A stretch of DNA of 64,000 nt from NCBI RefSeq assembly GCF_018614975.1, contig NZ_JAGGNR010000016.1:124001-188000 (forward strand). Direction: 5' to 3'. Under the pieces are notes generated by a model. The model ran no database searches. It had not been told where the DNA came from and saw only the letters and a list, made by a program, of their open reading frames with translations. Source of the DNA: Paenibacillus polymyxa. Its GTDB lineage: Bacteria > Bacillota > Bacilli > Paenibacillales > Paenibacillaceae. A program made the position numbers and the translations under genes. Each line of letters opens with the position of its first letter. Position 1 is the stretch's first letter. Of this stretch, positions 7,550-55,330 are shown piece after piece.

Positions 7550-8434
7550 TCATTGACCATCGGCTTTCGCAAGAGAGCCTTCCTCGCGTTGGTGGTGCTG
7601 AACTTCATTGGAGTGTTCGGAATGCGTATCAGGATCTTTTTCCGCATAACGTGCCAGTGCCTTCGCAGCTGTTTCGGACATCCGCTCCCGTAGCACTGTG
7701 TGGTCAGCGATTCGAACCCGTTTGCCGAGAAAACGCATTTTGGATAAGACGTAATCCATCTCATTGCGCGGAATGGTCAGCTCGATCCGATATGTCTGCT
7801 TGGCTTCCATGTACTCGACCTGTTTCTCGAAGCAGGAGAAGGCATAGAGGATTCGGGACAGCTCCTGATTGAATTCGGGCAGTACCTCGATGGTGATGGT
7901 CGTCTTACGCCTCAGCGTTATCGCAGCAATTCGGGCAGTGTAGCCCGAAGCGGTATCCGGATCAACCGGTTGGGCTTCCACGGTAACGATGCTGTGCAGC
8001 TTGGTTGACATGAGTTTGTCGAAGCGAGGCGCGTACCAGAGCACATACCATTCTTTTTTGACCATGGAATACTCCAGTTTATACGGGAAACCAAATTCAT
8101 CCTGGCTTGTGCGTCCATTGCGGACGCGACCGATCAGCCGAAATCCCTGATGATGGAGAATGATTAGCCGTAACTGTCTAAGAAGTGGATGAGAGACACT
8201 GTTTTCCTCACTTTTGGCTTTTTCGGTCAGGTAATCCTGAAGGTTCAGGTCCTGTTCACTATTCAGCATGTTGTGCATTTTATCCAACGTTACAGGGCTC
8301 AGGGCTTCTCTTGCGGCAGGGTGGTTTAACATCATACGAAGCCAGGCTCGTTCCTGTGAGGTCCAGGTGAATAGTCCGGTTTCATTCAGTCGTGTCATCA
8401 TCTGATAGTTGAACATCTTCTCGAACAGGTTCAT
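7550..8434 (-). CDS. WYL domain-containing protein (short partner)
   Basis: A protein of about 294 residues with a central WYL module (ILHHQGFRLIGR, YSMVKKEWYVLWYAPR) and a C-terminal WCX-like extension (LRRKTTITIEVLPEFNQELSRILYAFSCFE). No clear helix-turn-helix is present at the N terminus, unlike its upstream neighbour. WYL modules bind ligands or nucleic acid and usually control DNA-binding partners. The ATG at 8434 is preferred over a TTG at 8446 because GGAG lies too close to the latter. The gene overlaps the end of the upstream WYL regulator gene by about 53 bases, so the two are made together and may form a heteromer. Confidence 0.85.
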   Translation of the reverse strand: MNLFEKMFNYQMMTRLNETGLFTWTSQERAWLRMMLNHPAAREALSPVTLDKMHNMLNSEQDLNLQDYLTEKAKSEENSVSHPLLRQLRLIILHHQGFRLIGRVRNGRTSQDEFGFPYKLEYSMVKKEWYVLWYAPRFDKLMSTKLHSIVTVEAQPVDPDTASGYTARIAAITLRRKTTITIEVLPEFNQELSRILYAFSCFEKQVEYMEAKQTYRIELTIPRNEMDYVLSKMRFLGKRVRIADHTVLRERMSETAAKALARYAEKDPDTHSEHSNEVQHHQREEGSLAKADGQ

Positions 8435-9737
8435 AATATTCCGCAATCTCCTTCCATTCCTTGATCATCTCCTGGCGTAGTCTCTGAGGTGCGATTATTT
8501 CACAGCTTGAGCCAAAACTCCGTAACCACGGTTTGATCTCGGTGGTACCGTTGACCTGGATTTCGTAGAGAAAGGTATGATCCGTTTCGGGTATAATCTT
8601 GCCCCATTGACCTTGCAGACGAACCCGGTCCAGAATGAAGTTGCGCTGACCACGCTCCGGGTGGAAAAAGCGTGCTTGAACCGTCACGGTATTCCCCGTA
8701 TCCACGAGCCAACTGTAACGACTAATGTCGGTCCACTGCTGCTTCAACTCGAGCATGTATTGCTCTTCTATTGAATCCTCTTCCTCCAGTTGGGTTATGC
8801 CTTCCATCCGGAATTTCACAAAGCCGCGGCGACCCTGATATCCAATGACATACCAACGACCATACTGATGGTCATAGATCACTTCAAGGGGCACAATCCG
8901 GTTGGATCGACCACTTGCTTCCCGTTCAAAGCGTGGATTCGTATTCTGTGAACTGTAGCTGGATGGTTTTTTCGGTGAAAAGTACAGAAACTGCACACGT
9001 TTGCGCTGGCGAATCGCACTAAGCAGCGTGTAGAGATGAGCTTCATCCAGGATACGAGAATAATAGTGATACTTATAGATATAGGGTTCGGTAGCTTCTT
9101 CTTGCGGGAAACTTGCTGTAATGGCTTTCTTCAAACTGTCCCGCAATAAGTACCCCTGTACGGAAGGAACTTGAGTATTCGCCATCATATCCACAAAATC
9201 ATATAACTCCAGCTGTTCCTCCACCGTTAATTCGGTAAGCACATCCTGTTGCAAGGCATAGCGATACGGTCTGCCACCGAGCTCTTTCCGGATGACGCCG
9301 ACCTCCTCCAGATACTTTAGATCGGAGCGAATGGTTTTCTCGTCAGGTAACGCCAGATCTTCCGGCAGATCAGTACAGCAGGCGTCCAGCAGTTCCATCG
9401 CGGTCAGGGTTTTATGTTGTAAGGTATGCAAAAGAACAGAAAGACGCTGAACTTCAGTCTCTTTCATCGACTTGGCGCGGAAGAGGAAGAGCAGCATTGG
9501 CTCTGCCGACTCTCCGTATTGGAAGCGGACGAGATCTGCCATTTCCCGGCTTGCTTCGGCACCTGAGCGTTGGTCAGTGACAGTCTGCATGATTTCTTTT
9601 AATCTGCGATTGGTTTTATCAAAGGTATGTACGGATATGCCAAGCCGCTCGGCATATTGTTTGCGGTTATACGCACCGCTTGTTAGGGATAACATGCGTA
9701 AGAACTGAATTTCTTTGTCAAAACTCTCTCTTGCCAT
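8382..9737 (-). CDS. HTH-WYL transcriptional regulator
   Basis: A 451-residue regulator. The N terminus has helix-turn-helix segments (RKQYAERLGISVHTFDKTNRRLKEI and a second one near residues 125-160, DEKTIRSDLKYLEEVGVI). A WYL module follows (RQRKRVQFLYFSP, VIYDHQYGRWYVIGYQ) and a C-terminal WCX-type region (TVTVQARFFHPE). GGAG lies nine bases before the ATG at 9737; an ATG two codons upstream is too close to it. It is transcribed together with the overlapping WYL gene downstream, as in PafBC-type pairs. The signal and target are unknown. Confidence 0.88.
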   Translation of the reverse strand: MARESFDKEIQFLRMLSLTSGAYNRKQYAERLGISVHTFDKTNRRLKEIMQTVTDQRSGAEASREMADLVRFQYGESAEPMLLFLFRAKSMKETEVQRLSVLLHTLQHKTLTAMELLDACCTDLPEDLALPDEKTIRSDLKYLEEVGVIRKELGGRPYRYALQQDVLTELTVEEQLELYDFVDMMANTQVPSVQGYLLRDSLKKAITASFPQEEATEPYIYKYHYYSRILDEAHLYTLLSAIRQRKRVQFLYFSPKKPSSYSSQNTNPRFEREASGRSNRIVPLEVIYDHQYGRWYVIGYQGRRGFVKFRMEGITQLEEEDSIEEQYMLELKQQWTDISRYSWLVDTGNTVTVQARFFHPERGQRNFILDRVRLQGQWGKIIPETDHTFLYEIQVNGTTEIKPWLRSFGSSCEIIAPQRLRQEMIKEWKEIAEYYEPVREDVQLSDDDTTE

Positions 9738-14420: not shown

Positions 14421-14996
14421 ATGACTCAACAGATACCGGAGGAGGAGCTTATTCAGCGCATTGTTGCTGGGGATAAGCAGTTGTTCTCCGTGCTTGTGGA
14501 TCGATATAAAAATAAAGTCTACGGCATCATGCGCGGAATGGGCGCGAGTCATCCGGATGCAGAGGATCTCGCTCAGGATACGTTTATTCGCATCTATCGT
14601 TATCTCCCGTCGCGGCGGGAGGGAAGCAGTTTCTCGTCGTGGGTGTACACCATTGCGGTGAATCGGATGAGGGATTTTATACGAGAAAAGAAACCCGTCA
14701 TGTCTCCGGTCGATCAGGGGATCGAACCTGTCAGTAATGAAACACCGGAAAAGCGTGTGCTGCATAAAGAGATGCAACGTGAAATATATCGCCAGCTCGA
14801 ACAGTTACCTGAATCGTATCGCCTGGTGTTATTACTGAAGTACACAAACGAGTTGAGCTATGAAGAGATTGCAGACATTACAGGCATGAGTTCAACCAAA
14901 GTGCGTAACGCCCTTTATCGCGGGAAAAAAACGCTGAGGAAGCAAATGGAACGCAAAGGAGGTTTAGCTACGTATGAAGCCTATTTCAAAGGATGA
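14421..14996 (+). CDS. ECF-type RNA polymerase sigma factor
   Basis: A 191-residue sigma factor with region 2 (about residues 25-90: LVDRYKNKVYGIMRGM, DAEDLAQDTFIRIYRYL, SWVYTIAVNRMRDFIR) and region 4 (about 125-180: LPESYRLVLLLKYTNELSYEEIA, TGMSSTKVRNALYRGKKTL). No region 3 is present. GGGGG precedes the ATG at 14421. It overlaps the anti-sigma gene by 23 bases, the usual arrangement for a coupled sigma/anti-sigma pair. The regulon is unknown; autoregulation is likely, but no clear ECF promoter could be fixed upstream. Confidence 0.93.
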   Translation: MTQQIPEEELIQRIVAGDKQLFSVLVDRYKNKVYGIMRGMGASHPDAEDLAQDTFIRIYRYLPSRREGSSFSSWVYTIAVNRMRDFIREKKPVMSPVDQGIEPVSNETPEKRVLHKEMQREIYRQLEQLPESYRLVLLLKYTNELSYEEIADITGMSSTKVRNALYRGKKTLRKQMERKGGLATYEAYFKG

Positions 14997-16590
14997 GGAT
15001 CGGTTGTGGGAGGAGCACCTTTATCGTGAGGAGCCGGACGCAGATTTTACGCTTAAGGTCATGCAGAAGCTGGATGGCGTGTCTATGGAAAGTGGAGAAG
15101 ATCAGTATCCATTCGTGAAAAAATCCATGAGAGCGCATTGGATGCGGCGGACTGGAATTGTTACAGCGGCTGTTGTGATCCTCGTGGGAGGGGCCTGGTT
15201 TGCTTTTGATCACACAGCAGAGCCAGCGCAACCCGCGGTAAATGCTGTGGATCGTCTGCCATTGCCTAACATACCTGTGCCTGAAGCATTGAAATATTCC
15301 TATTTTGCGGATGATTATAAACGTCTTAAACCTCTTGGACTTGTAGTTAATCCGGATATCAATATCAATGACCAGGGCTACACGCTTAAAATTGAAGACG
15401 TGCTTGTAGACCGATCTCATATGGTAATGACTATGCAACAAACAACACCTGATGGATTAGGGTTATCACGTTTACTGTCTGAGATGGGGAGAATTCATGT
15501 TACGGATGAGGAGGGGCGACAGGTTGCTACTCTTGCAAGAGATACTAGAACTAAGGGTTCCGTAACTGAACGATTGTTATTCCAGTTTCATGATGAAATT
15601 CCGGATCAGGTAGTCGTGCGGGGTGAACTGCGTAATTTAAATATGGGCAGATATTATGATTACGAGAAGAAATCCTACGAAGATAGAGATGTTACGGTGG
15701 ATTGGAGCTTCCAATTCAATATCGATATGACCAAAGCCAAATCATTGGCTGTTGAAAATTCTATGGATAACACATATACGACGCCAGAAGGGCTAAAGCT
15801 CGATATGACCCAGCTTGTACGCACGCCAAACGGAACCCGGCTTGACCTGAATGTGAGTCTGGATGATGAACTTCGTGCCAAAGGTGATGAGGATTGGGCG
15901 AACTATATGAGCATCATCTACCATCTTGAGATTCCTGAAACAAATGAATATCGAATTTTCAATGGAATAAGACCAGATGCCCGTCAAGCCAAGTTTCGGC
16001 TCCAAGATTTGAGTGAATTAAGGAATGGTGGGCCGTTGAAGTTGTCGGAGACATGGGACCCTGCATTTGTTACGGTAGATGCGAAGAACATTCGCTTTGT
16101 TCTGGATGGTTACACCCTCCCGGTGAAGGAAGAGAAATCAGTGGAAGTTGATCTGGAGAAGAGGCGTAAGGACGACACTAAATTTTATACTTTTGTAGCA
16201 TTTGAACAGCTTGGAGATAAAATATTAATCTATGATTTTGATTACGAGCCAATGATGGAATCATATGATCCTCCGAAGATTGATGTAAAGGAAGGCTATT
16301 CACTAGTTCTGAAGGGGAGTGGGACGTTCCGAAATGCTTTCATGGGTGATCGCTGGGTTGCAGTAGATTCGGATGGAAAAGAGTATCCTGTTGAAGTGAA
16401 CGGTTATCCGGATCAACCTAATAATAACGGTGGATACGTTGAAGATGATCTGCAATTAAAAATTCGGGGGTTTAACGAAGAAAAGGGTACAAAATTCACT
16501 TTGAAAAGAACCGTAGTCAATAGAGAGTATCGCGATGTGAATTGGGAAGTGGATCTTCCGTCGTACAATAGCTTGCCTTGGCTGAAATAA
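14974..16590 (+). CDS. DUF4179 membrane anti-sigma factor
   Basis: A 538-residue single-pass protein. A cytosolic N terminus of about 55 residues includes EDRLWEEHLYREEPDADFT and would bind the sigma factor. One membrane helix lies near residues 57-76 (TGIVTAAVVILVGGAWFAF). A large outer part follows, starting with the DUF4179 region (YTLKIEDVLVDRSHMVMTMQ). AAAGGAGG precedes the ATG. It is coupled to the ECF sigma gene upstream and likely holds that sigma factor at the membrane until an envelope signal arrives. Coding-like sequence continues in another frame just after the stop. Confidence 0.88.
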   Translation: MKPISKDEDRLWEEHLYREEPDADFTLKVMQKLDGVSMESGEDQYPFVKKSMRAHWMRRTGIVTAAVVILVGGAWFAFDHTAEPAQPAVNAVDRLPLPNIPVPEALKYSYFADDYKRLKPLGLVVNPDININDQGYTLKIEDVLVDRSHMVMTMQQTTPDGLGLSRLLSEMGRIHVTDEEGRQVATLARDTRTKGSVTERLLFQFHDEIPDQVVVRGELRNLNMGRYYDYEKKSYEDRDVTVDWSFQFNIDMTKAKSLAVENSMDNTYTTPEGLKLDMTQLVRTPNGTRLDLNVSLDDELRAKGDEDWANYMSIIYHLEIPETNEYRIFNGIRPDARQAKFRLQDLSELRNGGPLKLSETWDPAFVTVDAKNIRFVLDGYTLPVKEEKSVEVDLEKRRKDDTKFYTFVAFEQLGDKILIYDFDYEPMMESYDPPKIDVKEGYSLVLKGSGTFRNAFMGDRWVAVDSDGKEYPVEVNGYPDQPNNNGGYVEDDLQLKIRGFNEEKGTKFTLKRTVVNREYRDVNWEVDLPSYNSLPWLK

Positions 16591-28876: not shown

Positions 28877-30949
28877 ATGGGAAACAGCAGTAGTGAGGCA
28901 CAATGCGACAAATATGTTGAGGATGGGAAACGTTTCGTCGGTCGAGCCGAGGAACTGACGACACTGGAGCGGTGGTTCAATCATCCGGAAGCCCCATTAA
29001 CCATATTCTCAATTACAGGCATGGGGGGCATCGGTAAATCTTCCTTGCTATCAGAGATGTTATCCGTATCTCGGGATCGAGGTGCGACAGCCATATGGAT
29101 GGATGGCCGATCATGCGGTGCAACACCATCCGTATTTATGGATTATCTCTCCTCTACATTAGGGCTGGAAACACTGGATAGTGAAGGGAATCCACGACCA
29201 CTGAGTCTACTGAAGGAGACTTCAATTGAGAAGAGATTGGTCCTGGCCGTGGATAATTATGAAGAGCTCGCTCTGTTAGAAAGCTGGTTCATGGAAGTCT
29301 TTGTTTCCAAACTTCCATTGAGAGGGATATTGGTCATTCTTGCATCACGCCCGGAACTCGCTTCTGCCTGGCGGACACATCCCCGACTGCATCAGCGTTT
29401 TGTACAGATGCGGCTTCAACATTTTACAGTCGATGAAATTACGGAGTACATCACAGTGGCAGGTTTTTTGAATCAGGGCATGGCAGGCACCATTACGAGA
29501 ATGACCGACGGGCATCCACTGGGTCTGGCCCTTGCTGTAGAAGCTGCAGATCAGAGGAGGAATCTTCCGCAGTCCGAATGGGCTGAACTGTCGCATATGA
29601 TCAGTGCTCGATTATTATTGGAACTTACTACACCTCGCCTGCACCCCATGGTGGAGGTACTCACATTGCTTGAGACAGCCAATCAGGAGTTGTTATCATC
29701 CGTACTGGATATGACCGTGACAAAAGAAGAGTACCACATGCTGAGACAGATGTCGTTTATCCGTTCGGGCCCGGATGGTCTTGCCCTGCATGATATGGCC
29801 AGGGTACATCTACTACGAGATTTTCGCCAACGTGAGCCACATCGGTTGCAGACGATGCGTATCAGGATTGCGAAGTTGCTGAAACCGCTGCATGAACAGG
29901 CAGGGTCTCATGTGCGTCGCCAAATTGCCAGGAAGATGCTGCTGCTCTGTCAGGAATCGATGCTTCAATACCGCAAGTACGCAGACGTGTCTCGTGATTC
30001 CTTGTTCTCGCCTCTTGAAACGATGACAAAAGAGGATCTGCCCGCTCTGCACAGCTTGTTACAGCAATGGTGCGAGTACAGCGTGGAACCATGGCAGGCT
30101 GTATCCTATGGCCCCTTCCTGGATGAATTGGCACAACGTTATCCCGAAGGAATCGTATTAATGCGTGACAAGCTTGGGGAGACAATTGCCATGTTCATTA
30201 CCATCCTTGTACATAGGGAGAGTAGTGAGTTGCTATTAAAATATTTTCCGAATGAGATGCAGGAATGCTTCACACCACAAGAGCTCCAAAATGACCCGGA
30301 TCAGAGTGATACACACTTTGCTTTGCTGGCGGCGGCAAGAGATGATATGCCTGGTTATACACGAGAAGAACTGGTAGGATACATGGCACTGGACCGGCTG
30401 TCTCTGCTTGGTGATGGTGCGCGAGCGATGCTCGTTGCAACGAATCCTCACCTGAAACTATTTTTGCAAAGTATTGGATTCCAGATGCGAAGAACCCGCA
30501 CCCGTGTCTGTGATAGATTCGAGGACCGGGCGGACATCCTTGATTTGGATTTGCGTAGTGGGCAATTCGGAGAGTGGGTCATGTCTCTGCTTGATCCGGA
30601 ATCAACAGAGAATCGTATACCGCCGGAAACAACGGAAGTGAATGGTGTAATCTGGAATGAACAGGATGTTCGCAAGATGTTGGGATTCCTTCGTTCTCCG
30701 GGAGAATTGCATGAATATGCTGGCAGGGTTACAGGAGTAAAGGATGGAATCCAGTTACAGCTGTATGTCATGGATGTGTTGGGAGGCAAAGTGCAAGGTC
30801 TATCTCCACAGGATCAGATGCTGTTATACGCGGCCTACTGGACGCATGCTGGCAATCCAACTGCCGCAGCTCAGACGTGTTCCATGAGTCGGGCGACATT
30901 CTATCGCCATCTCAGAACAGCGCTGACTCGCTTGGCACGGATTTTGTAG
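28877..30949 (+). CDS. STAND-type ATPase with C-terminal HTH
   Basis: A 690-residue protein. Near residues 20-35 the FVGRAEELTTLERWF box opens a STAND/NB-ARC-like module: Walker A GMGGIGKSS near residue 50, Walker B LVLAVDNYEE near 118, ILASRPEL (sensor 1) and the TDGHPLGLALA segment (GxP). A long helical middle region without obvious TPR repeats follows. The last 50 residues form a helix-turn-helix resembling sigma region 4 (NPTAAAQTCSMSRATFYRHL). This suggests a signal-dependent transcription regulator that oligomerises on ligand binding. The ATG follows GGAGG. Its target and ligand are unknown. Confidence 0.82.
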   Translation: MGNSSSEAQCDKYVEDGKRFVGRAEELTTLERWFNHPEAPLTIFSITGMGGIGKSSLLSEMLSVSRDRGATAIWMDGRSCGATPSVFMDYLSSTLGLETLDSEGNPRPLSLLKETSIEKRLVLAVDNYEELALLESWFMEVFVSKLPLRGILVILASRPELASAWRTHPRLHQRFVQMRLQHFTVDEITEYITVAGFLNQGMAGTITRMTDGHPLGLALAVEAADQRRNLPQSEWAELSHMISARLLLELTTPRLHPMVEVLTLLETANQELLSSVLDMTVTKEEYHMLRQMSFIRSGPDGLALHDMARVHLLRDFRQREPHRLQTMRIRIAKLLKPLHEQAGSHVRRQIARKMLLLCQESMLQYRKYADVSRDSLFSPLETMTKEDLPALHSLLQQWCEYSVEPWQAVSYGPFLDELAQRYPEGIVLMRDKLGETIAMFITILVHRESSELLLKYFPNEMQECFTPQELQNDPDQSDTHFALLAAARDDMPGYTREELVGYMALDRLSLLGDGARAMLVATNPHLKLFLQSIGFQMRRTRTRVCDRFEDRADILDLDLRSGQFGEWVMSLLDPESTENRIPPETTEVNGVIWNEQDVRKMLGFLRSPGELHEYAGRVTGVKDGIQLQLYVMDVLGGKVQGLSPQDQMLLYAAYWTHAGNPTAAAQTCSMSRATFYRHLRTALTRLARIL

Positions 30950-32715: not shown

Positions 32716-34559
<1,844 letters not shown>

Positions 34560-45502: not shown

Positions 45503-46264
45503 ATGGCGTACCCACCATGGCTGGACCCTTATGATGCAGAGCCGTTTATCCTGTTCTCCAGTTCACATATCGTTTCCATTAGCGTAATTACAGCATGGAT
45601 TGTAATGATGTTTTTGCTTCGACACCATCTTCGATCATGGTCAGAGAGGGCACGCCGTATTCTGCGGATTGTACTGGCCTGTATCATGTTCACCTGTGAA
45701 ATCGTGCTGCAACTCTGGTATGTGTACGGAGACATATGGAGCCTGCAGACGTCACTGCCACTCGAATTATGCAGTCTGTCTCTGCTGTTATCGGCGTTGT
45801 TACTACTGACACGCAGTCGACTGTTACATGCTGCACTGCTGTTTGCAGGCATTGCTGGAGCCCTTATGGCGATCCTTACTCCTAATCTGGGTTATGGTTA
45901 TGCACATTTTCGCTTCATTCAATTTTTCGTCGCTCATGCCTGCATCATTCTGGCTTTACTCTACATGACCTGGGTGGAACAGCTGCGACCTAGCTGGAGA
46001 TCTGTAGCAGGTTCAATGATATTTGTGAATGTGGCAGCATTAATCGTATACGTTGTAGATGTCATGCTGGAAGCGAATTACATGTTTTTGAGATACAAGC
46101 CGAGTACACCTTCGGTGCTGGATATGCTAGGTCCGTACCCCATGTACATCCTTGGGGAAGAGATCCTGGCGCTGGTTTTGTTTTCGCTGATGTATGTTCT
46201 GCTTTTTGCCATTCCAGATTGGTTGAAGCATCGTGTGAAAAAAGGTAAAAGCAATGCAGTTTAG
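45503..46264 (+). CDS. TIGR02206 family (YwaF-like) integral membrane protein
   Basis: A 253-residue protein with about six or seven membrane helices. The segments LQTSLPLELCSLSLLLSALLL, NLGYGYAHFRFIQFFVAHA and PSVLDMLGPYPMYILGEE match the TIGR02206/YwaF family, whose role is unknown. AAAGGAGAG at 45485-45493 fits the ATG at 45503. Confidence 0.88.
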   Translation: MAYPPWLDPYDAEPFILFSSSHIVSISVITAWIVMMFLLRHHLRSWSERARRILRIVLACIMFTCEIVLQLWYVYGDIWSLQTSLPLELCSLSLLLSALLLLTRSRLLHAALLFAGIAGALMAILTPNLGYGYAHFRFIQFFVAHACIILALLYMTWVEQLRPSWRSVAGSMIFVNVAALIVYVVDVMLEANYMFLRYKPSTPSVLDMLGPYPMYILGEEILALVLFSLMYVLLFAIPDWLKHRVKKGKSNAV

Positions 46265-51146: not shown

Positions 51147-53045
51147 ATGAAAAATGTGCCCAAAGCTATCGTCATCTTATGGATGAGTGTATTGATTATT
51201 CTAGGCATGCCACATGGGATAGTCTTTGCAACTACAGGAGTGGTTCAGCAACCTGTATCCATTACAGGATGGGAAGTACAATGGGGGAACGTTGACGATC
51301 AAGGATTCATCAGTGAGGTTAAGGGAGCAGACGAGATATGGGAAAAGCAGGGCAGCGATAAGTTCGAGTATAGCAATACGGATCGATCGAATTCCTTATG
51401 GACGCGCCTGACCATCCCTGAATTGAGTGAGGAAAGTTTAGCCATTCGATTTGAGAACATTAAAGGCAATCATATTGTTATCTATTTGGAAGACCGCAAG
51501 GTCTACGAGAACTACCATTACAATTATGATAATAATGCTGTGTTGCTGCCCTTATCCAGCGAAAATTCTGGTGACACGCTCTATGTATGGTCGCAAAATG
51601 AGAAAGGCCGTTTGGGGATACAAGGTACTGTTCAGGTTGGACCTTATGCCGCGTTACAGGAGAAATATATTCATAACGGACTTATTGATGTAATTTTGGG
51701 CGCGACCTTTGTTTTCACAGCGATTACGATGCTGAGTTGTACGTTCTTCCTTGGTAAATTCCATAAGGGATTATGGATCTCGCTATGCATCGTGATGGGT
51801 TCCATCGGCACGATGATCATCACGTACTCGAAATTTTTGTATACGTTCTATCAGGTATATGGTGACCTGTATTCCGTAGTCTTTGATCTGGCGATGCTGC
51901 TGGGTATGCCAGCGCTATGTTATTTTTTTGAACAGATTATCGGAACAGGACTGCATGGAATCTTCACCAAACTGCGAAAAATAATATTCATATATTCAGT
52001 TATCGCTGTGTTCTCTCTATTTATCTATGTTACTTCAGGTGGGCAATGGGAGATCCTCTACAATCTGCTCGTACAGCGTGTGGTTGGCATTGTGCTGGTC
52101 ATTCTGCTGACAATCCTGTTGGTTGGTACCATTGCTAAAGCGCTGCAACGAAATCGGGAAGCTATGCTGCTTGCGACAGGATTCGGTACATTTGCCTTGA
52201 TCAGTGTGGCTGAACTGTTGTGGTATTATCAGCGGAGTGGGACATATCATCTGTTATGGTGGAAATGGTCCATGGTTGCATTTGTGATCTCGTTGATTGC
52301 CATTCTCGGAAGTCGTTTTGCCGAAAAACACACCAAAGTTCTAGAGTATTCCAAGGAACTGGAGCTGTTCAACAATGAGTTGCAGCGATCCGAAAAGATG
52401 GAGATTATTAGCGAATTGGCTGCTTCCGTTGCCCATGAAGTACGTAATCCACTTCAGGTGACAAGAGGGTTCCTGCAACTTATGACGGAACAGGAAGACA
52501 ACAAAAACAAGGGGTATGTGCGAATTGCACTGGAAGAACTTGATCGGGCTTCGGGCATCATAACGGACTTTCTTACCTTTGCCAAACCTGAGTTTGACCA
52601 TATTATCGCGCTCAATATCTCGGATGAGTTCAATCATATTGAAGGCATTCTTGTACCGATGGCTAATCTGGAAGGTGGTAAAATCACCACTGACATTCCG
52701 CCAGATCTATATATTCGGGGCAATTCCTCGAAGTTCAAGCAGGCTTTTATCAATATTATCAAGAACAGTATTGAAGCTCTGCAGGGACAAGGCCAGATTG
52801 ATATCTGGGCGTACAAGCAGGATGGAATGATTAAGGTGCATGTCAGGGATAACGGAGAAGGAATGGATGAGGAAGCACTCTCCCGGTTGGGCGAGCCTTA
52901 TTTCTCCAATAAAATCAAAGGCACGGGCCTCGGCATGATGGTGACATTCCGAATTGTTGAAGCGATGCAGGGACAGATCAGCTTTACAAGCACCAAAGGG
53001 GTAGGAACAGAAGCGGTTGTATCTTTTGCCGAGTTCGTCGATTGA
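51147..53045 (+). CDS. 7TM sensor histidine kinase (7TMR-DISM type)
   Basis: A 632-residue membrane kinase. A signal segment (residues 5-28) is followed by an outer beta-rich domain (about 30-175, NSLWTRLTIPEL, NHIVIYLEDRKVYENY). Seven membrane helices cover about 176-395. The HisKA phosphoacceptor is in ASVAHEVRNPLQVTRGFLQ (His near residue 430). The ATPase domain has N box FINIIKNSIEAL, G1 VRDNGEGMD, F box PYFSNKIKGTG and G2 LGMMVTFRIVEAM. The kinase half is of the sporulation/KinA-like type and not the NarL-like type of ComP. No response regulator is adjacent. It is convergent with the peptide/isoprenyl enzyme pair, so it is a candidate, but unproven, receptor for that product. Confidence 0.93.
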   Translation: MKNVPKAIVILWMSVLIILGMPHGIVFATTGVVQQPVSITGWEVQWGNVDDQGFISEVKGADEIWEKQGSDKFEYSNTDRSNSLWTRLTIPELSEESLAIRFENIKGNHIVIYLEDRKVYENYHYNYDNNAVLLPLSSENSGDTLYVWSQNEKGRLGIQGTVQVGPYAALQEKYIHNGLIDVILGATFVFTAITMLSCTFFLGKFHKGLWISLCIVMGSIGTMIITYSKFLYTFYQVYGDLYSVVFDLAMLLGMPALCYFFEQIIGTGLHGIFTKLRKIIFIYSVIAVFSLFIYVTSGGQWEILYNLLVQRVVGIVLVILLTILLVGTIAKALQRNREAMLLATGFGTFALISVAELLWYYQRSGTYHLLWWKWSMVAFVISLIAILGSRFAEKHTKVLEYSKELELFNNELQRSEKMEIISELAASVAHEVRNPLQVTRGFLQLMTEQEDNKNKGYVRIALEELDRASGIITDFLTFAKPEFDHIIALNISDEFNHIEGILVPMANLEGGKITTDIPPDLYIRGNSSKFKQAFINIIKNSIEALQGQGQIDIWAYKQDGMIKVHVRDNGEGMDEEALSRLGEPYFSNKIKGTGLGMMVTFRIVEAMQGQISFTSTKGVGTEAVVSFAEFVD

Positions 53046-53080
53046 CGAACTCACAGAAGGATACAGCGGCTTTTTTTGTT
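53031..53080 (+). terminator. hairpin and T-run at the end of the kinase gene
   Basis: Arms GAGTTCGTC (53031-53039) and GACGAACTC (53044-53052) span the stop codon; a T-run lies at 53073-53080. Confidence 0.6.
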
Positions 53081-53123
53081 CCTACCTCTGATTTTCTTAC
53101 TTTACCAATTTAACTCATCCGAA

Positions 53124-53369
53124 TTAACTTCGCCAAGGTCCGCAATTCACATCATAATTTACTTTGGAAGGATTGGGAGGTATGACAAGCACATAGTCAT
53201 TCTGCTGCTCCTCAACGGTACGTACCTTAATGTGCTCCGGGATTATGATACCGAAAGCTTCACGAAGCGCCTGCTTTGGATTGGAGTGCAATTGTTGTCT
53301 GAAGTGCTCGTCAGTCCAAGCCTTTTCAATAATATCCTCATGCAACGTTTTCTCTGATACCATCATCAT
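53124..53369 (-). CDS. NHLP-leader RiPP precursor peptide with Cys/Trp core
   Basis: A peptide of about 81 residues. The first 60 match the nitrile-hydratase-like leader (NHLP) pattern: TLHEDIIEKAWTDEHFRQQL, NPKQALREAFGIIIPEHIKV and the closing strand NDYVLVIPPNPS. After this lies a short core, KVNYDVNCGPWRS, with one Cys and one Trp close to the end. AAGGGA at 53376-53381 suits the ATG cluster at 53369/53366/53363; an ATG at 53384 lacks a ribosome site. It follows the isoprenyl-enzyme gene by about 51 bases on the same strand. The expected fate is enzyme-guided modification of the core, leader removal and export. The role (pheromone or antimicrobial) is inferred. Confidence 0.82.
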   Translation of the reverse strand: MMMVSEKTLHEDIIEKAWTDEHFRQQLHSNPKQALREAFGIIIPEHIKVRTVEEQQNDYVLVIPPNPSKVNYDVNCGPWRS

Positions 53370-53420
53370 CAACATTCCCTTCATATTTAAAATTAAACTG
53401 AATCAGCTTAGTCCTTGTGC

Positions 53421-54368
53421 TCAGAATCCCAACTGTTGCTCGCTAATCCAGTGATGAAACCCGCCTTGGAGGAGCCGTTTCTTCCGTTGTGTAATGTCCT
53501 GAACAGCTTGTACTAAAGTGCTGCATAAATAAGAATTAAACACCTCAAGATGCGATATTCCTAAGTTAGACGATGTTAGTGTACGATTATAGTGATAAGC
53601 AATGTCTACGTAAGAGTTCATGAGTTGTGTATTGTATACATTATCATGTATACGTTCGCTTAAAGGATGAACTGGATAGTTGTGATTCAGTGCTGCGGAT
53701 ACGTGGGAGAGGTAGCTGTTGTAGTTTCCATGCACAGCATCTTGTTGCGTGTCTGTGAAGTCATCGGTCATCTGGAGTGTCATGAGCGTGATATTGATGG
53801 CAGAACACACCGGGATGATCCGGTCGGACTGATTCAGCAGAAGGAGTGCTCCAGTAGCTCCAATGAGCAGAGGGGCAGCCTTTTGCGCAATCAACAAGGG
53901 ATTCTGTTGGAAATAATCAATGGAATGCTCACCCGTAACACTTACGGCCCAATCCACGACATATTGTCTGAAATAGACCCAGAACGTGGAAGAAGGATCG
54001 AATAATACCGAGTAAGATTGAAGTGCATCCATGTAGTATAGATTACCCAGGGATAACTTCAATGTGGCATTCTCCGGTTGTTCATCCATCACGTCGTCCT
54101 GATTCAGAAAATATAACATGTGAATGAGACAGGCTGTACTTAATTGGTGTGCTTTCTCTGGGGGTAGTTTATCTGAGTGTTGCATCCAGAGTGGAATGAT
54201 ATACCCGATATAACTGTGCCCCGGATCTCGTAACAGGGGATTGACCGAATGAAGTTGCTCCAATGCATGTCCTGACATGGGCTCGGGATATTCTCGTACG
54301 AGTTGTTCCGCTGAAGCAAACACGACCTCCAGATCGGAGCTAAACGGATCTAACCAATCTCTCCGCAT
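53421..54368 (-). CDS. class I isoprenoid synthase-like enzyme (ComQ-like)
   Basis: A 315-residue all-helical enzyme. Two Asp-rich motifs in the places of polyprenyl synthases are visible: LNQDDVMDEQP near residue 90 (DDxxD) and LQMTDDFTDTQQD near residue 200. They would bind Mg2+ and the diphosphate of an isoprenyl donor. The chain lacks other landmarks of housekeeping farnesyl or heptaprenyl synthases and no isoprenoid pathway gene is near. Its downstream partner is an NHLP-leader peptide with a C-terminal Trp. ComQ, a diverged member of this superfamily, prenylates the Trp of ComX from the same gene order. By analogy this enzyme may prenylate the peptide core; a terpene synthase is the alternative. 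Confidence 0.78.
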   Translation of the reverse strand: MRRDWLDPFSSDLEVVFASAEQLVREYPEPMSGHALEQLHSVNPLLRDPGHSYIGYIIPLWMQHSDKLPPEKAHQLSTACLIHMLYFLNQDDVMDEQPENATLKLSLGNLYYMDALQSYSVLFDPSSTFWVYFRQYVVDWAVSVTGEHSIDYFQQNPLLIAQKAAPLLIGATGALLLLNQSDRIIPVCSAINITLMTLQMTDDFTDTQQDAVHGNYNSYLSHVSAALNHNYPVHPLSERIHDNVYNTQLMNSYVDIAYHYNRTLTSSNLGISHLEVFNSYLCSTLVQAVQDITQRKKRLLQGGFHHWISEQQLGF

Positions 54369-54592
54369 CGTTACATCTCGTCCTTCCTGCGATAAGGTGA
54401 TTCAGGACTGTTCAACTGATATAGATCATGAAGTTACATTCAGTATAGCGGAAATAAACTGAAAAAAATAGGATTTTTTGTGATCAATTGTGAGAAAAAT
54501 GATGACTTTTTGTATTTTATGGCATAAAAAAGTGGATTTTAGGCTCAAACTAGGAAGGCACAGGATTTCGACATCGGAAAGGCGGCAGAAAA

Positions 54593-55330
54593 ATGAATTT
54601 GAAATGGAAGACATGGATGGCAGCCGGATTGGCAGCCGTAGTCATAACAGCAGCAACAGGACATGTGGCATTCGCTGATTCAACGGTTCGGGCTGAGGAA
54701 CATGACGATGCGTCAAAAGCTTCTTCCTCCGGCAAATCAGCGAAGCCATGCATGCAGGCAGGACACGGTCTGTTCATGATTGGTGAAACAGCAGATTTGC
54801 TTGGGATTGGACTTCGGGATCTGAAAGAACAGATGGAACTTGGCAAGACGTTGTCCCAGATTGCCAAAGAGCGTAAGGGACTAAGTGAGGAGCAGTTATT
54901 GCAGAAGTTGAAGCCTACACTTGCGCAGCGTCTGGATCAAGCTGTAGAAGAAGGCTGTCTCACTAAGGAACAAGCTGCGGCCACGAAGGCGGACATGGAT
55001 ACCAAGTTGAAAAAGGTCATTAATACCCCGCTGCGTGACTTGCGGCGTGAATTTGCCCACCATGGCAAACGTTCCATGGTAGATAAGGGGGAAATTGCCC
55101 GGTTTATTGGAGTCACCCCGGCTCAACTGCACGAGCAGCTTCAGGGAGGGAAATCCCTGGCTGAGATTGCTCAGGCAAAAGGCATTAGCGAAACGCAGCT
55201 GGTGGACAAGCTGAAGGAACAATTAACGGGTGATCTGAAGAGATTTGTGAATCAGAAGGGCAACGTGCATCCAGCCCCGGGTCCCCAGGAACCTGTTCCT
55301 GGACGATCCACTTCGAGCGAAGTAAAATAA
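54593..55330 (+). CDS. secreted protein with two copies of an LGIS-type helical repeat
   Basis: A 245-residue exported protein. The signal peptide is WMAAGLAAVVITAATGHVAFA. Two similar modules follow: residues 63-110 (ADLLGIGLRDLKEQMELGKT, LSQIAKERKGLSEEQLLQKL) and residues 160-205 (ARFIGVTPAQLHEQLQGGKS, LAEIAQAKGISETQLVDKL). The shared pattern is hydrophobic-G-(I/V)-xx-x-L-xx-Q-(hyd)-xx-GK-(S/T)-L-xx-IA. A linker ends in Pro-rich sequence. AAAGGCGG precedes the ATG. It is divergent from the isoprenyl-enzyme gene. Function unknown. Confidence 0.8.
   Translation: MNLKWKTWMAAGLAAVVITAATGHVAFADSTVRAEEHDDASKASSSGKSAKPCMQAGHGLFMIGETADLLGIGLRDLKEQMELGKTLSQIAKERKGLSEEQLLQKLKPTLAQRLDQAVEEGCLTKEQAAATKADMDTKLKKVINTPLRDLRREFAHHGKRSMVDKGEIARFIGVTPAQLHEQLQGGKSLAEIAQAKGISETQLVDKLKEQLTGDLKRFVNQKGNVHPAPGPQEPVPGRSTSSEVK

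Follow-up and report, generated by a model that had tools for sequence, protein, structure and literature searches.

The closest described relative of the locus analyzed here is the PalQ/PalX/PalP system of Paenibacillus alvei, for which prenylation in vitro and NMR data were reported in December 2023 and in which PalQ acts as a tryptophan C3-prenyltransferase, PalX is the NHLP-led precursor peptide, and PalP is a sensor kinase (PMC10853753). In vitro, PalQ leads to mass shifts of +68, +136, and +204, and NMR identified the modified residue as a pyrroloindole. The leader of PalX boosts the reaction but is not essential, and an Ala added after the Trp of PalX abolishes PalQ activity, a need for a terminal Trp that has been attributed by the authors to the shape of the pocket. 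The pal cluster has been described as conserved across Paenibacillus, and the C-terminal Trp of its precursor has been termed conserved (PMC10853753). A review from 2026 reports low activity of PalQ on an internal Trp flanked by glycines and contrasts this enzyme with ComQ and ChrPC as internal-Trp enzymes (PMC13290415).

In the comQXPA system of Bacillus subtilis, four genes including the regulator gene comA are located on one strand; the precursor ComX is an extremely variable member of PF05952, and the kinase ComP has a PF07730 domain (PMC4008528). In ChrPC, a trans-IDS-like P domain prenylates an internal Trp, as the window enzyme may do; unlike the window enzyme, ChrPC has, according to its description in the review, a second domain that cyclizes the prenyl group (PMC13290415, section 2.4).

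Gene set, enzyme, and precursor peptide

The window, that is, the whole stretch of 64,000 nucleotides analyzed, encodes a PalQ-like enzyme, an NHLP-led precursor peptide on the same strand, and a sensor histidine kinase on the opposite strand (Table 1), the same three kinds of genes as in the Paenibacillus system PalQ/PalX/PalP. The initial annotation had described a 315-residue enzyme with two Asp-rich motifs and a peptide of about 81 residues with the C-terminal region given in Table 1, and both were confirmed; it had overlooked the convergent kinase. It had also proposed a possible new prenylated RiPP, which is not new in kind, since PalQ and PalX have already been published (PMC10853753).

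Table 1. Features of the locus, with positions counted from the first letter of the window
Feature	Positions	Strand	Basis and remarks
PalQ-like trans-isoprenyl-diphosphate-synthase-fold tryptophan prenyltransferase (predicted)	53421..54368	(-)	315 aa; ORF, AlphaFold2, Foldseek, family matches
FARM DDVMD, residues 91-95 (PalQ D89/D93)	54084..54098	(-)	alignment of 137 enzymes
SARM with putative Trp-recognition Gln, QMTDDFTD, residues 199-206 (PalQ Q197, D200, D204)	53751..53774	(-)	alignment of 137 enzymes; PalQ spacing
PalX-like precursor peptide	53124..53384	(-)	86 aa if read from first ATG; start probably at 53369 (81 aa)
NHLP leader, residues 12-73 (86-aa numbering)	53166..53351	(-)	TIGR03793, 63.9 bits, cut-off 50.9
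C-terminal region NYDVNCGPWRS with presumed core	53127..53159	(-)	CGPWR in 44/44 window-type genomes
Codon of Trp84, the presumed prenyl acceptor, with two residues after it	53133..53135	(-)	invariant column and census
PalP-like sensor histidine kinase	51147..53045	(+)	632 aa; HisKA and HATPase (Pfam); gene converges on that of the peptide

The enzyme gave no match at cut-off in Pfam and NCBIfam, and a search of its profile against the sequences of solved structures yielded nothing significant (best E 0.088). An AlphaFold2 model based on an alignment of 47 sequences reached a pLDDT of 91 and a pTM of 0.88, and a Foldseek search with this model returned 240 matches, a single one of which had an E value <0.001 (9.1e-4, probability 1.00). 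Among the 50 matches listed of these 240, nearly all are isoprenyl diphosphate synthases or related prenyltransferases with 10-17% identity. The modeled enzyme has the fold of isoprenyl diphosphate synthases, to which its sequence identity is low. In an alignment of 137 enzymes, D91 and D95 of the FARM are present in all sequences, residue 92 is D in 109, E in 27, and A in one of them, and Q199, D202, D203, and D206 are invariant. The Gln is located three residues before the SARM, and the offsets between FARM, Gln, and SARM are identical to those of the published PalQ landmarks.

The precursor shares its leader with other NHLP-led RiPP precursors (TIGR03793, E 8.8e-18). Its true start is probably at position 53369, because a Shine-Dalgarno-like AAGGGA immediately precedes ATGs at residues 6-8 and because an in-frame ATG is missing from the relatives at loci L032-L036 where the window peptide has its first ATG. 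The peptide gene is present in one copy in its own genome. A Pfam search with E values up to 1 did not assign the peptide to PF05952, the ComX family, the NHLP leader being matched instead, and a genome-wide search for PF05952 in its own genome gave no match, with the control likewise matching nowhere. ComX is not known to carry an NHLP leader. An Rfam scan of the window returned nothing, and a pattern scan of positions 52900-54650 found two promoter-like sites (4.1 in shuffled sequences) and three terminator-like sites (1.1 in shuffled sequences), none of either kind being located between enzyme and peptide. In a tethered model of enzyme and peptide, the core was left unplaced (pLDDT <50).

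Distribution and neighborhood of the three genes

A search of the genus found the enzyme in 63 of 75 genomes. Enzyme, peptide, and kinase occur together at all 63 loci (the window and L003-L064, with the kinase only partly inside the DNA examined in L003-L031), and because of this constancy their association is not due to chance. The 12 genus genomes with no enzyme match suggest losses. Across the family, a match was obtained in 326 of 394 genomes, a number that counts enzyme matches, with peptides sought only at loci whose DNA was examined; in an even sample of the phylum, the six matches among 398 genomes all belong to this family. A scan of named genomes, in which the best 80 of 139 relatives were retained, found a kinase match directly downstream and convergent at 77 of these 80 loci, the kinase being the best match at 75 of the 77 and a second match at L095 and L102. 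A peptide match was also found at 77 of these best 80 loci, outside the usual place at L140 and L141. A kinase match is absent at L097 and L138, and at L140 the kinase is located upstream instead.

For a census of the precursors, 176 loci were reduced to 138 distinct enzyme-peptide sets, and the interval scanned for an NHLP peptide ran from 150 nt ahead of the enzyme's end to 1500 nt beyond it. Such a peptide was found at 131 of the 138 distinct loci, which had been picked by enzyme similarity and are therefore biased toward near relatives. The seven distinct loci with no peptide in this interval are L020, L140, L141, L097, L138, L139, and L179. The peptide of L140 is flipped and ends with WP, and that of L141 is located beyond the kinase and ends with GW. 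At L020 (G005:C1, 1432-2739), a frameshift at the end of the enzyme merges enzyme and peptide into one open frame of 436 aa, in which the conserved Gly-Gly near the C terminus of the enzyme is lost and the peptide ends with CGPWRS; this merged frame is either a sequencing error or a real fusion. At L097, L138, L139, and L179, where the enzyme is present and no peptide was found, the peptide may be encoded elsewhere or have diverged.

The isoprenyl diphosphate synthase fold and these four of 138 distinct loci would also agree with a conventional synthase of terpenes or isoprenyl diphosphates that adjoins the peptide by accident. This is scarcely credible, however, given that the pair is kept at every genus locus and lies within 1.5 kb at 131 of the 138 distinct loci, and that the published relative PalQ is a proven peptide prenyltransferase (PMC10853753). 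Even in Gorillibacterium timonense (L140, 1633-4921), in which the order is rearranged to kinase (+), peptide (-), and enzyme (+), the three genes are still together. Homologs thus keep the peptide, so that the refuting condition named in the initial annotation, enzymes consistently occurring without it, did not apply, and a reading as part of a terpene cluster was rejected on the same ground. It is very likely that a ComQ-like enzyme acts on the Trp of an NHLP-led peptide.

In Pfam scans of 13 neighboring ORFs of the window (44.2-59.9 kb), none reached the cut-off of a response regulator, exporter, or peptidase family, which bears out the earlier statement that no other modifying enzyme, peptidase, or exporter is near. 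Unlike other NHLP-led RiPP precursors, the window peptide is not accompanied by a cyclodehydratase, LanM, radical SAM enzyme, or C39 transporter within this set of 13 neighbors. A response regulator was likewise not found in ten ORFs of four relative loci, which include one kinase and represent part of the neighbors. An ABC transporter gene within 4 kb at L134 (L134:76-1845) and genes for an M56 peptidase and a radical SAM enzyme within 4 kb at L091 (L091:509-1525, 8147-8926), the latter about 3.2 kb from the peptide, are read as unconserved neighbors. Elsewhere in the window, the (+) strand encodes a TMEM164-family membrane protein of 253 aa (45503-46264), a collagen-repeat protein with a BclA C-terminal domain (33057-34559), which is likely a spore-surface filament protein, a STAND-type NTPase (AAA_16/nSTAND1) of 690 aa (28877-30949), and a 538-aa ORF (14974-16590) with no Pfam match at an E value of 1e-5.

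Acceptor residue and the tail of the window clade

The initial annotation had named Trp or Cys as acceptor. All 131 census peptides have a Trp among their last five residues, followed by no further residue in 72 peptides, by one in 11, two in 44, three in 3, and four in 1. In a 27-row alignment of precursor peptides, 11 rows of which are of the window type, this Trp is the sole invariant column in the last twelve residues, and many columns of the leader are invariant as well. The alignment of cores suggested earlier thus gave the pattern of a conserved leader and Trp with neighbors that vary between clades. Modification of the conserved Cys81, instead of or besides Trp84, would fit its presence in all 44 window-type genomes and the fact that Cys prenylation is common in eukaryotes. 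Within the last twelve residues, however, a Cys occurs in 43 of 43 window-clade peptides and in none of the 88 others, while the Trp is universal. In addition, the indole-recognizing Gln is invariant, and all characterized trans-IDS-like peptide prenyltransferases target Trp according to the review (PMC13290415), which makes the Cys a very improbable acceptor. Being restricted to the window clade, it was rejected, and only the Trp half of the earlier proposal stood.

Unlike PalX, which ends with DNVRRFFW, the window peptide has the residues R-S after its Trp and an invariant C-G-P before it. The internal position of the Trp had been overlooked in the initial annotation and is, as judged from the sequence, the real departure from PalX. 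The C terminus reads CGPWR[STND](F) in 44 of 44 window-type genomes, and the peptide ends with Trp in all 19 other genomes of the same genus set ("polymyxa-type"). Tails after the Trp are also found at 16 loci outside the window clade. In a tree of the enzymes, which was calculated by a quick method from 111 rows after 27 near-identical rows had been removed by hand, the window clade has an SH-aLRT support of 100 and a stem of 1.1. At least six changes between tail-less and tailed forms are needed on this tree, in which several branches are long and the deep joins are unsure.

Within the clade, eight members are 85-98% identical to the window in the peptide and 61-96% in the enzyme; in the five members with a full-length kinase, identity falls to 69% in the sensor part and is at least 93% in the kinase part. 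What looks new on comparison of these sequences is the variant with an internal Trp and a near-frozen core CGPWR in the presence of a diverging enzyme. No PalX-type precursors with residues after the Trp were found in the titles and abstracts searched, and the supplementary clusters of the PalQ study could contain some. This frozen cross-species core is unlike ComX and counts against a ComX-like reading, ComX being reported as extremely variable (PMC4008528).

The clade enzyme would act, like ComQ and unlike PalQ, on a Trp that is internal and followed by two or three further residues (CGPW-R-x). Such a direct modification is not assured, because PalQ is inactive with an Ala after the Trp and the kinship with PalQ is known via a proxy. 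The back-translated published PalX core of P. alvei was found in 0 of 394 genomes, and the nearest PalX-like locus, L134 (core ...RRFVW), was used instead, the enzyme of which is 32% identical to the window enzyme. Alternatively, the two-residue tail could first be removed by a carboxypeptidase, and the enzyme would then prenylate a C-terminal Trp like PalQ. The rejection of C-terminal extensions by PalQ in vitro (PMC10853753), a strict terminus that is repeated in the review (PMC13290415), and the 72 of 131 peptides that end with Trp point in this direction. Nevertheless, such trimming is unlikely: the Arg of the tail is kept in all 44 clade genomes, which would be odd for a part to be discarded, and no peptidase is present among the 13 window neighbors scanned. 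Furthermore, at 17 enzyme positions the clade (43 rows) has a fixed residue that differs from that of the tail-less majority (72 rows); several of these positions are near the Asp-rich motifs, although the long stem alone could explain this. These positions include W204 to F within the SARM, C55 to G, F88 to L, and Y38 to Q. Because most of them are not shared by the 16 other tailed enzymes and because the stem of the clade is long, they are candidates for tail acceptance and no proven rule.

Sensor kinase and proposed pathway

The histidine domain of the kinase is a HisKA domain (PF00512). Hydropathy analysis revealed an N-terminal hydrophobic stretch, followed by a predicted outer region of about 150 residues and then by seven more stretches of hydrophobic character. 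This layout resembles that of 7TMR-DISM proteins, for which no match was obtained with Pfam. The closest solved relative of the catalytic part is the sporulation kinase KinB (3d36) with 186 bits, followed by the next solved kinase with 95 bits; the best other kinase of its own genome reached 144 bits against the kinase domain, a value from another program that is only roughly comparable with 186. The NCBIfam model of KinD scored 136.9 bits, far below its cut-off of 775. Based on these scores, the catalytic domain is nearest to KinB.

In having an enzyme with the isoprenyl synthase fold, an internal Trp near the end of the precursor, and an adjoining membrane kinase, the locus resembles ComQ/ComX/ComP of B. 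subtilis. Unlike ComQXPA, it has an NHLP leader, a KinB-type HisKA domain, and a convergent kinase gene, and neither a PF05952 precursor nor a PF07730-type kinase with an adjoining response regulator was found, no regulator being present among the 13 neighbors. Because the flanks scanned contain no cognate response regulator, signaling by the kinase is inferred from the gene partnership. The product could also be an antimicrobial or membrane-active peptide with no signaling role, in which case the kinase would regulate its production or sense stress. Peptides geranylated with PalQ have been reported to gain antimicrobial potency, and the core is frozen within the clade and not diversified like ComX. 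No recognizable immunity gene or exporter is found among the 13 window neighbors, however, and, as in ComQXP, it is a receptor-like kinase that constantly accompanies the pair, so that a purely antimicrobial role appears rather improbable.

The locus is probably of the PalQ/PalX/PalP type, with prenylation of an internal Trp in an NHLP-led peptide, sensing by the kinase, and an output to sporulation. In this pathway, the enzyme would bind the NHLP leader of the precursor and transfer an isoprenyl group, probably C10 or C15, to the indole C3 of Trp84, after which the prenylated residue would cyclize to a pyrroloindole. The end of the peptide would then be released by cleavage, exported, and detected by the convergent kinase, the KinB-type domain of which may pass phosphate to the sporulation phosphorelay (Spo0F and/or Spo0A). 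This output, in which a ComX-like pheromone would feed the phosphorelay, is suggested because the kinase domain is nearest to KinB. Two kinases of Paenibacillus polymyxa have been reported to complement sporulation mutants of B. subtilis, and one of them, Kin1038, is thought to pass phosphate directly to Spo0A (PMC6429003). A literature search with the locus tags neighboring PPE_01038, which encodes Kin1038 in P. polymyxa E681, returned nothing on the neighbor genes. Judging from a rough map position, estimated from genome size and gene count, Kin1038 may be the kinase of this locus.

A further, tentative reading, toward which we lean less than away, is that PalQ-type enzymes changed between terminal and internal Trp acceptors no fewer than six times, and that the Paenibacillus pabuli/amylolyticus group may use a ComX-like form with internal Trp, in which a prenylated peptide that hardly varies across species (CGPW*R, the asterisk marking the prenylated Trp) would act on sporulation via a KinB-type sensor. 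This would represent one pheromone common to many species, as opposed to strain-specific pherotypes, with an NHLP leader unrelated to ComX.

The interest that remains beside the published system concerns the internal-Trp lineage, the core frozen across species, and the KinB-type receptor kinase. PalQ is attractive as a labeling tool because it needs a terminal Trp, and the natural internal-Trp clade offers ready-made enzymes and 17 candidate positions to explain or re-engineer this limit. The locus also allows a connection of a prenylated peptide with a KinB-type kinase to be tested directly. It is present in P. terrae, P. brasilensis, and P. ottowii, which are near relatives of P. polymyxa. 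According to a paper from 2014, P. polymyxa has no comQXPA homologs (PMC4209062). With enzyme matches in the large majority of the family genomes, the locus is a candidate for what these bacteria use in place of ComQXPA.
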